A stretch of 33,910 nucleotides of DNA from a virus: positions 1-33,910 of IMG/VR virus record IMGVR_UViG_3300018074_000013, one strand, 5' to 3'. This document shows positions 10,499-13,011 of the stretch, one piece after another. Every line of letters begins with the position of its first letter. Positions within the stretch are counted from its first letter, which is position 1. The translations under genes and the position numbers were made by a program. The notes under the pieces are model-generated. The model had not been told where the DNA came from and did no database searches. It was given only the letters and a program-made list of their open reading frames with translations.

Positions 10499-10735
10499 AT
10501 GAATCTGAGCGATGAGAGACTCGATGAGATTCTTTTGAAATTGATCCGAGGAGAGCACCCGGATCATAAGGACCTGGAACGAATCATCCTTGAGTTGAAA
10601 TGTCAGCGATCGAGGACATGGATGTGGTTGTTGCAGCCTCAGCCTTTGCAGCCTTACTATATTTACCCGAACCCGAACCAGCCACCATCGGTATTACCCA
10701 TCTACTGCGAGACTGGCGGCCTTGGCGACTGCTAA
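10499..10735 (+). CDS. Unknown small protein with Pro/Tyr-rich tail, 78 aa
   Basis: ATG behind AGAAAGGGAGAACA, a good SD. Residues 1-40 form an acidic/basic helical region (MNLSDERLDEILLKLIRGEH). Residues 41-70 switch to a Pro/Gln/Tyr/Trp-rich stretch (LLQPQPLQPYYIYPNPNQPP), ending near a cysteine. The stop overlaps the TTG start of the MuF gene. Another frame (10600-10773) is open across the second half, so the exact C-terminus is less certain than the start. No function recognised. Confidence 0.6.
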   Translation: MNLSDERLDEILLKLIRGEHPDHKDLERIILELKCQRSRTWMWLLQPQPLQPYYIYPNPNQPPSVLPIYCETGGLGDC

Positions 10736-12791
10736 CGAGAAGCTCCTCCGGGTCTCCCTCCGTCACCAGGTAGATGTCCGCAGGTTCGCGGCCGGTGAGG
10801 TACGGGCGATCTTGCGCCTCCTTGAGGGGGCGGATCGGGAGTTGGTCGAAAAGCTTCGGGTGCGCCTCGCCCGCCTCGGGGCAGTGACTGACTTCACCAG
10901 CCGGCGATATCGGGCCGTGCTTGAGGAGATCAGGGAACTGCGCCGTACGGTCGTGGACGCGGTGCGGCGCCGGACTGCGGGGAAGCTCGAGGCGCTCGCG
11001 GCCCAAGAAATCCGGGCCGAGGGCAGGGCCATCAAGGCATCCATCCCGATCCGCGTCGAGTTGGCCCGCCTCCCGATTCAATCGGCCGCGGCCATCGCTA
11101 CCGAGCGCCCGTTCCAAGGGAAGCTCCTCGGGGAATGGTTCTCCGAACTCCGGGCAACTGACCAGCGGAACCTCGTCCAAGAGATCCAGCTCGGGTTGGC
11201 ACAGGGGGAAGGGGTACAGCAGATCGTTCGCCGGGTGGCTGGGACCCGCGCCAATGGGTTCCAGGACGGAGTCCTGGCGATCACCAGGAGGAATGCGGAG
11301 GCGGTGGTGCGGACCGCGGTGAACCACGTCTCAAATGCGGCCCGAGAAGCGGTCTGGGAGGGCAACGAGGATATCGTATCGGCCCTCCGGTGGACGGCCA
11401 CCCTTGATGGCCGGACATCTGCGATCTGTCGGTCCCGAGACGGGGCGCTCGTGATGCTGGACGATCGGCCACTGCCGGAGGGAGAGCGAGCACTGGAGCC
11501 AAATGGGGCGCGGCCTCCTGCCCACGTAAATTGTTTACTTGGCGATAGTTATGTATTGCCCTGTGGCGGGATCACGGCCGCTATGAAACGGTTTTATGCA
11601 GGAGAGATTGTGGTCATCCGCACGGCGTCGAAACACGAACTGACCTGCACCCCAAATCACCCGATACTCACAGATCGAGGATGGGTCGCAGCGAAGCTCC
11701 TGGATCGCAGCGACCGCGTAATCTGCTACCTTGGGAGTAAGGATCCATTTAGCGGTGTCGAACACGAACACCAGGATGGACCATCTCGAATCGAGAATGT
11801 AGCGCGTCCGCTTCTCGAAGGTCCGGGTATGAATTTGGTCTCGACTTCTGGATGCGACTTCCACGGCGATGCGATCGATGGCGAAGTCTGTATTATAGGG
11901 ACCAAAAGCCTTCTGAAACGTGTCGAAGCAGAGCCCGCGCTCCAGCATCATATCGTTAAACAATCTCTCGAGAGTAGAGGATCGAGAGTCCATCTTTCCC
12001 TCCCTGGTTCTGGCACTAAGGCATTTCTCCTGGAGAGACCTCGTTCGTCCTCTAGACGCAATATGGGCGGCCGAAATCTGGGCCGCCCTATCCTCCGGTG
12101 TTCTTCTATCCCAGATTCCCTGATTAGCCTCACAGCCTCGTCTTCTCTTCTCGGGATCTCTCCATGCCAGGCGACGAGCCTCTCCGGCACTTCGTCTCGA
12201 TATTCCTCGTTCCTTGAGAATTCGATAGAGGACGATGTCCGAGAATTCGCGATTTCGGCAGATGTCATGGACTCCCTCTCCGGACACGTATCGTGTGACG
12301 AGATCGTCGATATCGAACGGCGTGATTTTTCGGGCCACGTGTTTAACCTCCAAACCGGTTCCGGAATTTATTTTGCCACATTCGGTAACATAATAACACA
12401 TAACTGCCGATCCGTCATGGTCTCCGTGATCGATGGTGAGGCCCTGGTGGGTAACCGGCCCTTCGTCAGCGATGCCCGCCGGCCAGACGAGCGTCTGGCT
12501 GACTTCCGGGCCGAGGCTAGGCGCACCGGACGCCCGATCGGGGAGATCCGCGAGGAATGGGCCGATGAGAACATTGGGAGCGTGCCGGCCAAGATCACTT
12601 ACGGGGAGTGGCTCGGGGACCAGTCAGCAGCGTTCCAAGACGAGGTCCTGGGTCCAACCCGCGGAGCACTATTCCGTCGCGGCGGGCTGGAGATCCATGA
12701 GTTTACTGATCGGAGGGGAAATGAACTGACCCTCGAGGAGCTGGAGGCCCGGCACGGCGATGCCTTTGAAGAAGCGAACTTAGGGGATTGA
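10722..12791 (+). CDS. MuF-like head morphogenesis protein interrupted by an intein
   Basis: SPP1 gp7/Mu gpF-like minor head protein that binds the portal. TTG start at 10722 gives the usual N-terminus (ATANEKLLRVSLRHQVDVRR); no ATG is available upstream in frame. Extein residues 1-270 are helical, then the MuF core WTATLDGRTSAICRSRDG (224-241) and PPAHVN (265-270). The conserved H-x-N-C-R-S motif is split: after N270 comes a 291-aa intein (271-561), and C562-R-S continues the extein to residue 689. After splicing the protein would be 398 aa, normal for the family. The intein tract is more AT-rich than the exteins. Confidence 0.9.
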   Translation: MATANEKLLRVSLRHQVDVRRFAAGEVRAILRLLEGADRELVEKLRVRLARLGAVTDFTSRRYRAVLEEIRELRRTVVDAVRRRTAGKLEALAAQEIRAEGRAIKASIPIRVELARLPIQSAAAIATERPFQGKLLGEWFSELRATDQRNLVQEIQLGLAQGEGVQQIVRRVAGTRANGFQDGVLAITRRNAEAVVRTAVNHVSNAAREAVWEGNEDIVSALRWTATLDGRTSAICRSRDGALVMLDDRPLPEGERALEPNGARPPAHVNCLLGDSYVLPCGGITAAMKRFYAGEIVVIRTASKHELTCTPNHPILTDRGWVAAKLLDRSDRVICYLGSKDPFSGVEHEHQDGPSRIENVARPLLEGPGMNLVSTSGCDFHGDAIDGEVCIIGTKSLLKRVEAEPALQHHIVKQSLESRGSRVHLSLPGSGTKAFLLERPRSSSRRNMGGRNLGRPILRCSSIPDSLISLTASSSLLGISPCQATSLSGTSSRYSSFLENSIEDDVREFAISADVMDSLSGHVSCDEIVDIERRDFSGHVFNLQTGSGIYFATFGNIITHNCRSVMVSVIDGEALVGNRPFVSDARRPDERLADFRAEARRTGRPIGEIREEWADENIGSVPAKITYGEWLGDQSAAFQDEVLGPTRGALFRRGGLEIHEFTDRRGNELTLEELEARHGDAFEEANLGD
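11532..12404 (+). mobile_element. Intein in MuF, 291 aa, with nested antisense endonuclease gene
   Basis: Self-splicing protein element. It begins with Cys (block A CLLGDSYVLP), has block B TCTPNHPILTDRGW with TxxH at intein residues 40-43, a block F-like segment DFSGHVFNLQTGSGIYF, and ends in block G NIITHN followed by extein Cys: a class 1 Cys1/Asn-Cys+1 design. Only about 68 N-terminal and 37 C-terminal residues look like splicing domain. The 185 residues between have no LAGLIDADG or HNH motif and are Ser/Arg/Leu-rich filler. The opposite strand carries an endonuclease gene over almost the whole element. Insertion is at the catalytically or structurally conserved HVN/CRS motif, as is typical for inteins. 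Confidence 0.9.
11535..12338 (-). CDS. Antisense Vsr-like (EDxHD/PD-(D/E)XK) homing endonuclease inside the intein
   Basis: 267 codons from GTG (complement of 12336-12338) to TAA, the complement of intein codon 2. GGAGG (complement of 12347-12351) lies eight bases before the GTG. An upstream in-frame ATG, the complement of the intein's penultimate His codon, gives 288 aa but has no SD. Domains: N-terminal HTH (about 9-55, DDLVTRYVSGEG...ILKERGISRRS), basic linker, then a nuclease core: E124 (STLERLF), QKAFGPYNTDFAID with D151, IAVEV with E160, H170, RTRYILDSRWSILVF, and a C-terminal EYRVIWG. This matches the layout of phage homing endonucleases related to Vsr/I-Bth0305I. The usual 'GG.WH' after VEV is not seen, so activity is uncertain. 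It would cut intein-free MuF alleles. Confidence 0.8.
   Translation of the reverse strand: MARKITPFDIDDLVTRYVSGEGVHDICRNREFSDIVLYRILKERGISRRSAGEARRLAWRDPEKRRRGCEANQGIWDRRTPEDRAAQISAAHIASRGRTRSLQEKCLSARTREGKMDSRSSTLERLFNDMMLERGLCFDTFQKAFGPYNTDFAIDRIAVEVASRSRDQIHTRTFEKRTRYILDSRWSILVFVFDTAKWILTPKVADYAVAAIQELRCDPSSICEYRVIWGAGQFVFRRRADDHNLSCIKPFHSGRDPATGQYITIAK
12347..12418 (-). promoter_or_regulatory. Candidate minus-strand promoter and SD for the antisense endonuclease
   Basis: Read on the minus strand: -35-like ATGACG (complement of 12413-12418), a 17-base spacer, -10-like TATTAT (complement of 12390-12395), then about 40 bases to GGAGG (complement of 12347-12351) and the GTG. The -10 matches five of six sigma-70 consensus bases and the -35 four of six. 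The -35 lies in the C-extein and the -10 in the codons of block G (NIIT), so the element spans the junction. The SD uses the codons of block F (FNL). Pattern match only. Confidence 0.45.
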
Positions 12792-12792
12792 C

Positions 12793-13011
12793 TTGTATTC
12801 AAACTGCTCTTATGATGGGATGCTTGTGACGTACAGATTAACCAAATTCGAGAAGTTCATGCTGATAACGGCCCTCGTGGTCGTCTCGTTCTGGGTCTAC
12901 ATGTCCTTCCGCGACCATGGTCTCGGAGTTCTCAACCGACAATACGAGATCCACACACAGGAGCGGGAGAATCTGCTCGAAGAGCTGAGTGAAGGAATCA
13001 AAGGTGGCTAA
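12793..13011 (+). CDS. Small single-pass membrane protein, 72 aa
   Basis: TTG start with AGGGG six bases upstream, one base after the MuF stop; an internal ATG at 12820 lacks an SD. One membrane segment (MLITALVVVSFWVYM, about residues 23-37) is followed by a charged, probably coiled-coil C-terminus (YEIHTQERENLLEELSE), so an N-in/C-out topology is possible. Could be a holin-like, spanin-like or unrelated head-gene-cluster membrane protein; not decidable. Overlaps the next short gene by eight bases. Confidence 0.65.
   Translation: MYSNCSYDGMLVTYRLTKFEKFMLITALVVVSFWVYMSFRDHGLGVLNRQYEIHTQERENLLEELSEGIKGG

Follow-up and report, generated by a model that had tools for sequence, protein, structure and literature searches.

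An intein in a phage minor head gene and a homing-endonuclease-like gene in codon register on its opposite strand

Can an intein and a nuclease of unrelated fold be read from the two strands of the same codons, and how would such an element spread? This question is raised by the IMG/VR virus record IMGVR_UViG_3300018074_000013, analysed here over its whole length of 33,910 bases (hereafter the window). The open reading frame (ORF) of its minor head protein (10722-12791, plus strand) runs uninterrupted through a 291-amino-acid insert, and a minus-strand ORF (12401-11535) lies entirely within that insert, in exact codon register with the sense frame. Comparative sequence analysis makes it very probable that the insert belongs to a wide family of mobile inteins whose splicing domain and homing endonuclease occupy opposite strands, codon in register, and for which protein splicing, nuclease expression and cutting are predicted.

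Two proteins on the same codons

The intein signature is complete in the window: Cys1, the TPNH of block B (motif TxxH), the C-terminal His-Asn and Cys+1 are all present, and the block B residue H43 is invariant among 56 inteins. Pfam Intein_splicing matches with an E-value (E) of 1.4e-7, which is under the gathering score, TIGR01445 matches above its cut-off, and the extein matches Phage_Mu_F (E 3.9e-11). In a model of the sense intein the splicing halves (residues 1-66 and 250-291) have predicted local distance difference test (pLDDT) scores mostly of 84-97, and scores are below 50 across residues 142-242 and most of 130-140. The best Foldseek match of this model is the Mtu RecA intein (probability 1.00, E 1e-3), which has the Hint fold.

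A sequence-only reading of the window had proposed that two conserved motifs share positions 11535-11750 (intein codons 2-73) in opposite directions. Codon for codon this is what the DNA holds: block B, TCTPNHPILT, reverse-complements to CEYRVIWGAG of the nuclease, at the motif EYRVIWGAGQF, and the exact register of the two frames extends across intein and nuclease. The motif overlap proper covers about 36 bases within that interval. The motif YRVI.G.G, which is frequent near the end of endonucleases of this type, agrees with the majority consensus of 65 nuclease sequences, YRVIRGxG, and in the nuclease model the YRVI strand and its turn sit at the end of the Vsr-like domain.

Do both proteins constrain the same bases here, as was also proposed? 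With sense position 1 opposite antisense position 3, every change was classed as nonsynonymous or synonymous in each frame, giving four classes (first letter for the sense frame), from which a sense ratio (dNN/dSN) and an antisense ratio (dNN/dNS) follow. The sample was 21 intein pairs, 68-98% identical, with every locus used once. Over codons 2-73 the sense ratio is 0.29 (0.20-0.39) and the antisense ratio 0.38 (0.29-0.51), and in block B (codons 31-50) they are 0.24 (0.11-0.43) and 0.36 (0.17-0.61). The N-extein control gives the pattern of a single coding strand, with 0.36 in sense and 0.83 (0.73-0.94) in antisense, whereas the filler between the splicing halves gives 0.76 (0.64-0.89) in sense and 0.37 (0.29-0.46) in antisense. 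The active-site stretch (codons HGD-4 to HGD+11) is low in both frames (0.26 and 0.18). In the last 22 intein codons, upstream of the nuclease start, the sense ratio is 0.09 and the antisense ratio 0.60 (0.29-1.59), with no clear antisense coding. Furthermore, all 21 pairs have dNS above dSN in the middle of the intein, and 0 of 21 have it in the N-extein. The ratios indicate that both proteins are under purifying selection over the same codons (2-73), that the exteins are constrained in sense only and that the filler is constrained mainly in antisense. The expectation that change is limited in this region is likewise borne out by raw divergence, which is 13.6% over codons 2-73 and 10.1% in block B but reaches 19.6% in the middle of the intein and 28.1% for the N-extein.

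It had been suggested that a free-standing endonuclease without an EYRVI-like C-terminus would expose the motif as accidental, a by-product of the intein codons. Searches for free-standing copies turned up a single lineage, made up of the IMG/VR locus L157, the Acinetobacter phages P1068 and IME285 and, by count, one further Acinetobacter record. It ends in YFKVLTIRSK, where its nested sisters have [HY].V[IV].C. This end keeps the aromatic-basic-V-aliphatic succession but lacks the G.G, so the suggestion is borne out in part: comparison of the sequences indicates that the core strand is common to the free-standing lineage and the nested copies and that the G.G turn is not universal. A test of codon choice bears directly on the supposed accident. 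For 74 of 99 dereplicated inteins, the codons used for the sense amino acids of block B were set against codon usage in the exteins of that gene. Tyr is retained in the antisense reading of 57 of 74 (10.3 expected), Ile in 52 of 69 (17.5 expected), Gly at position -2 in 45 of 74 (16.2 expected) and Gly or Cys at position 0 in 66 of 74 (39.8 expected); at positions +6 to +9 usage is close to expectation. The synonymous codons of block B thus appear to preserve antisense Y.VI[RW]G.G, and YRVI as a mere accident of TPNHPI codons is ruled out by this test. Therefore the conclusion that both proteins constrain these bases holds despite the partly different end of the free-standing relative.

The antisense nuclease and its family

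The nuclease model (mean pLDDT 86.0; predicted template modelling score 0.70) aligns structurally with Vsr (Z 11.0; root-mean-square deviation, rmsd, 2.5 over 111 residues), I-Bth0305I (Z 9.7; rmsd 2.8 over 94 residues) and 3hrl (Z 8.5), and a search with the nuclease family profile matches 3r3p (E 4.6e-6). Pfam searches of 14 nucleases find helix-turn-helix domains, with MTES_1575 in seven and DUF559 in two. As a lone query against Pfam, NCBIfam and PDB sequences the window nuclease gave nothing useful, and family profiles were needed. In alignment A2 (65 nuclease sequences) Y148, N149, D151, A153, A158 and E160 are invariant and E124 is nearly so. The models and conserved columns point to a Vsr/I-Bth0305I-like nuclease fold with a conserved acidic core, and cutting is predicted. 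The EDxHD signature includes a His-Asp half. EDxHD is the name given to a homing endonuclease group in PMC3943268; since no conserved His-Asp pair is established here, the nuclease is not filed under that name.

The sense string DFHGD, taken as a separate intein motif, was set aside as the main reading: its complementary strand encodes the VAVE core of the nuclease, which the free-standing nuclease keeps without an intein. The DFHGD/VAVE stretch is constrained in both frames and the sense model is fairly confident there, and it may have a role in the sense protein.

How widespread is this arrangement? A scan for the nuclease core, based on a degenerate DNA pattern, found at least 120 stretches in IMG/VR and 13 in bacterial genomes. 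All 133 listed loci encode the nuclease (worst E 5.6e-26), and all 133 have an opposite-strand intein profile match with the sense ORF in register, as against 0 of 133 with a same-strand intein, counts to be read with the caveat that the pattern selects the nuclease core together with its mirror and that the intein profile contains mirrored columns. A split-intein or fractured-gene arrangement is ruled out by the continuous sense frame of the window and by the in-register sense ORF with intein match at every listed locus. The codon work used 128 inteins, of which the scan supplied 110 and phage records 17, the window being the last; left out were L045, L125, L132, L136, L155 and records without located intein ends. 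Cys1 is present in 126 of the 128 and Cys+1 in 125, terminal Asn being a requirement of the filter.

With the antisense protein as tblastn query, 122 of 50,697 phage records matched, and in 105 of these the match spanned 80% or more of the protein, while a search with the sense intein matched 128 records but only eight over 80% of the length. At these distances the antisense protein therefore appears better conserved than the sense protein outside the splicing blocks. In 92 of the 99 dereplicated inteins no stop interrupts the antisense frame between intein codons 17 and -22, where 7.0 would be expected from extein codon usage, a difference which indicates that the antisense nuclease frame is not there by chance.

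Judged by insertion-site sequence, the host gene of most members is MuF. Other hosts are a portal-MuF fusion (L089), DNA polymerase A (L031, L095, L126), terminase (L079, L140), a UDG-domain protein (L026), an endolysin/chitinase (L122) and, by eye, a dCMP-deaminase-like gene (L023); a PHROGs search of ten exteins that did not look like MuF left three without a match. As the same intein type occurs in DNA polymerase A or UDG-domain genes (L026, L031, L095, L126), the element has entered unrelated host genes. Two members (L065, L080) have inteins of only 191 amino acids with a shortened filler; their nuclease ORF is 199 amino acids long and part of the DNA-binding region is apparently missing.

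Start signals within the splicing motifs

Where would expression of an antisense gene begin if the gene lies within an intein? On the minus strand of the window a promoter-like site is followed by GGAGG and then by GTG. Across the family, 102 of 127 inteins have their best-scoring nuclease start exactly 20 codons in from the intein end, opposite the His of the block F motif HVYNL, and 93 of these 102 have a Shine-Dalgarno sequence of at least four bases; start choice itself used Shine-Dalgarno strength, which leaves the position informative, the signal strength partly selected and the codon test less exposed. The window departs from the family norm, with GTG and an offset of 22 codons in place of ATG and 20.

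Codon usage in these motifs is strongly biased. The Leu of block F is CTC in 63 of 75 dereplicated members (18.4 expected), which spells GAGG in antisense. For the His, 49 of 62 members use CAT (22.7 expected), the complement of ATG. The antisense of the last eight codons contains a -10-like hexamer (at least five of six bases) in 43 of 99 inteins, against 17.0 (standard deviation 3.2) after synonymous shuffling with third-position A/T matched, and an extended -10 in 22 of 99 against 3.2 (standard deviation 1.6). Three neighbouring control stretches gave no -10 excess in the 99 dereplicated inteins. These biases indicate that the start signals are under codon-level selection.

A working scheme for the element can be put together from these observations. 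In sense, the intein would be made with the minor head protein and splice itself out. In antisense, an extended -10 promoter across block G, as suggested by its sequence, would drive a short leader, with the Shine-Dalgarno sequence and start codon across block F. The ORF would then encode a helix-turn-helix DNA-binding part opposite the filler, a nuclease domain of the Vsr/I-Bth0305I kind opposite filler and extended Hint region, and at its C-terminus a beta hairpin whose YRVI[RW]GxG faces block B, with the stop at or near block A. The nuclease would cut intein-less alleles of the host gene, and repair would copy the intein in. Since the nuclease gene and most of its start signals lie inside the element, the element could move as one unit.

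Mobility, alternatives and known systems

Evidence on movement comes from close relatives. A joined-flank query for a Salmonella-phage MuF gene matched 348 records, of which 287 have an unbroken site, defined as a single place that covers 80% or more of the query; for a Gordonia MuF gene the site is unbroken in 86 of 116. Among the matches listed, the interrupted Salmonella-phage records break at the identical base. Homing would leave just such a pattern, with close relatives either carrying or lacking the intein at one and the same site. In the free-standing lineage, the nuclease gene (1156-2049 of locus L022 in P1068, 455-1348 of locus L160 in IME285) is convergent with an intein-less minor head gene, with a 7-base 3' overlap. 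An unrooted tree places this lineage beside four nested copies (100/97). Escherichia phage KMB36 (787-2757 of locus L021) carries a related intein at a second MuF site, after DSRTST and about 22 codons before the usual site.

Could the antisense ORF be no more than conserved intein codons that, read backwards, happen to be open and conserved? The in-register antisense frame of GC-rich phages can stay open by chance (it is open over 1-1914 in locus L018), and a conserved sense protein always brings some antisense conservation with it. However, filler and active-site stretches evolve as an antisense protein, with the dNS excess in the middle and not in the N-extein; codon choice in blocks B, F and G is far from usage; the free-standing homolog has 7 to 16 stops in the sense frame; and the sense filler is predicted to be disordered where the antisense protein is predicted to fold. 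A chance frame is scarcely credible on this evidence. Slightly less remote, though still highly improbable, is that the antisense protein is real and selected but serves as a regulator or phage repair nuclease and not as a homing endonuclease. Its best structural match, Vsr, is a mismatch-repair nuclease, and N-terminal helix-turn-helix domains are typical of regulators too, but such a function sits poorly with the strict tie to inteins across several hosts (MuF, DNA polymerase A, terminase, endolysin, portal-MuF fusion, dCMP-deaminase-like), with presence and absence at an identical site, and with a conserved nuclease core that matches the homing endonuclease I-Bth0305I.

Homing theory expects the nuclease to decay after fixation, and the intein may be real while the nuclease of the window is already decaying and the overlap is only a relic. 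The KMB36 copy, which is broken, is compatible with nuclease loss after fixation, and the window nuclease has only about 20-36% identity to its relatives as well as its unusual start codon and offset. Yet its frame is intact over 267 amino acids, E124, Y148, N149, D151, E160 and R177 are present, and so are the GGAGG and the -10-like site, all of which make decay in the window unlikely, if the least improbable of these alternatives.

A homing element with both proteins maintained remains the preferred explanation, and several observations count against it. A stop interrupts the antisense frame of KMB36. No -10-like hexamer of five in six bases occurs in 56 of the 99 dereplicated inteins, and a promoter scan of the window by itself is weak (two sites, 0.7 expected). 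The null of the codon tests is extein codon usage, and 25 of the 99 inteins were missed by the block B regular expression and omitted from the codon-choice test. A control of unrelated actinobacterial inteins, too small to weigh much (15 of 30 parsed), had a -10 in 0 of 15 with 0.29 expected and only four with the Leu. The first Foldseek match of the nuclease model is I-Bth0305I (probability 0.99) with weak E-values, the best being 1.9e-2, and alignment A2 has no invariant or nearly invariant His-Asp pair past E160, with E and D candidates conserved. With these points included, it seems likely that the family is a large class of mobile inteins, of old origin and still actively spreading, in which a splicing enzyme and a homing endonuclease of unrelated folds are encoded back to back on the same codons and the catalytic motifs of the intein double as control or coding signals of the nuclease (block G as -10 promoter, block F as Shine-Dalgarno sequence and start, block B as core hairpin and block A as stop).

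How does this compare with known mobile elements? In textbook mobile inteins the nuclease lies inside the spliced protein. Canonical homing-endonuclease inteins such as Mtu RecA and VMA share with the window the Hint fold, Cys1, block B TxxH, C-terminal Asn and Cys+1, and spread driven by a nuclease is proposed for the window too, but its nuclease is not a domain of the intein protein and is coded on the opposite strand, across filler and splicing motifs. With the nuclease on the other strand, the sense filler is therefore almost free of sense constraint (see its ratio above) and the splicing motifs carry the start signals of the nuclease. I-Bth0305I and Vsr resemble the window nuclease in fold and in sequence profile; I-Bth0305I differs in being listed as a 'mobile intron protein', whereas the window gene is antisense to an intein and the His-Asp part of EDxHD is not seen in it as conserved columns.

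Nuclear group I introns, too, can carry homing genes in antisense: in the account of the Didymium I-DsqI intron in PMC9548176, the nuclease gene is likewise opposite the host-gene strand and has its own proposed promoter, but the element is an RNA intron in nuclear rDNA, the gene lies in peripheral P9.2 and there is apparently no second protein on the other strand. Out-of-frame HNH genes are known in phage methylases, where the ShiLan domain, as outlined in PMC11855218, is also a mobile phage insertion that is open in the host frame and hides an endonuclease in another frame, but that frame is shifted, the fold is HNH and there is no splicing domain. Membership in the ShiLan type is ruled out for the window, where the nuclease is on the opposite strand, in register, with a splicing domain present and a Vsr-like fold. 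No report of an intein with an antisense nuclease was found in the open-access PMC literature, subscription papers and preprints being outside the search. PMC11855218 cites a 2025 preprint (Gosselin, Arsenault, Gogarten) which, by its title, concerns actinobacteriophage inteins with 'non-canonical architecture' and may cover the Gordonia members or part of the present finding.

If correct, the element is a living, testable case of two ancient enzyme folds on both strands in register, and a measure of how tightly a single piece of DNA can pack two unrelated enzymes. The Rodin-Ohno proposal reportedly invokes in-register sense-antisense coding for tRNA synthetases. For theories of this kind the family offers a natural set of more than 100 sequences. 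The antisense gene has been missed by annotation. In the phage records opened, the free-standing Acinetobacter copies are annotated, but among intein-nested records only Salmonella phage vB_StyS-sam has any of the gene annotated, a piece of 402 bp (1487-1888 of locus L010, ORF43, hypothetical protein).

Table 1. Positions of the intein, the antisense gene and their motifs in the window
Feature	Position	Strand	Remarks
N-extein, MuF-like / SPP1 gp7-like minor head protein	10722-11531	+	phrog_241, E 2.8e-124; start codon as called by the ORF tool
Intein, 291 amino acids	11532-12404	+	Cys1...His-Asn, then Cys+1 of the C-extein; inside MuF-like minor head protein
Intein block B, TCTPNHPILT	11643-11672	+	Codons 38-47
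Filler between splicing halves	11913-12224		Sense model largely disordered; in antisense, nuclease linker and DNA-binding part
C-extein of minor head protein	12405-12791	+	First residues CRSVMV
Promoter-like site, ATGACG-17 nucleotides-TATTAT	12390-12418	-	TG before -10; -10 antisense to block G Ile-Ile codons; -35 in C-extein
Shine-Dalgarno sequence, GGAGG	12347-12351	-	8 nucleotides before GTG start; antisense to block F (HVFNLQ)
Antisense homing-endonuclease-like gene, 267 amino acids	11535-12338	-	Likely start GTG, 12338-12336
Conserved nuclease Glu124	11967-11969	-	Nearly invariant in alignment A2
Core nuclease motif, D151 to E160	11859-11888	-	D151 at 11886-11888, E160 at 11859-11861; sense reading includes start of FHGD
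Nuclease motif EYRVIWGAGQF, residues 224-234	11637-11669	-	Strand 224-229, turn, strand 233-239
Nuclease stop, TAA	11537-11535	-	Antisense to intein codon 2 (Leu TTA)

Besides the interrupted MuF-like minor head gene, the plus strand of the window carries genes for terminase, portal and a major head protein. At the end of the minor head gene (12788-12816, plus strand) there is a sigma-70-like site, TTGACT-17-TATGAT.

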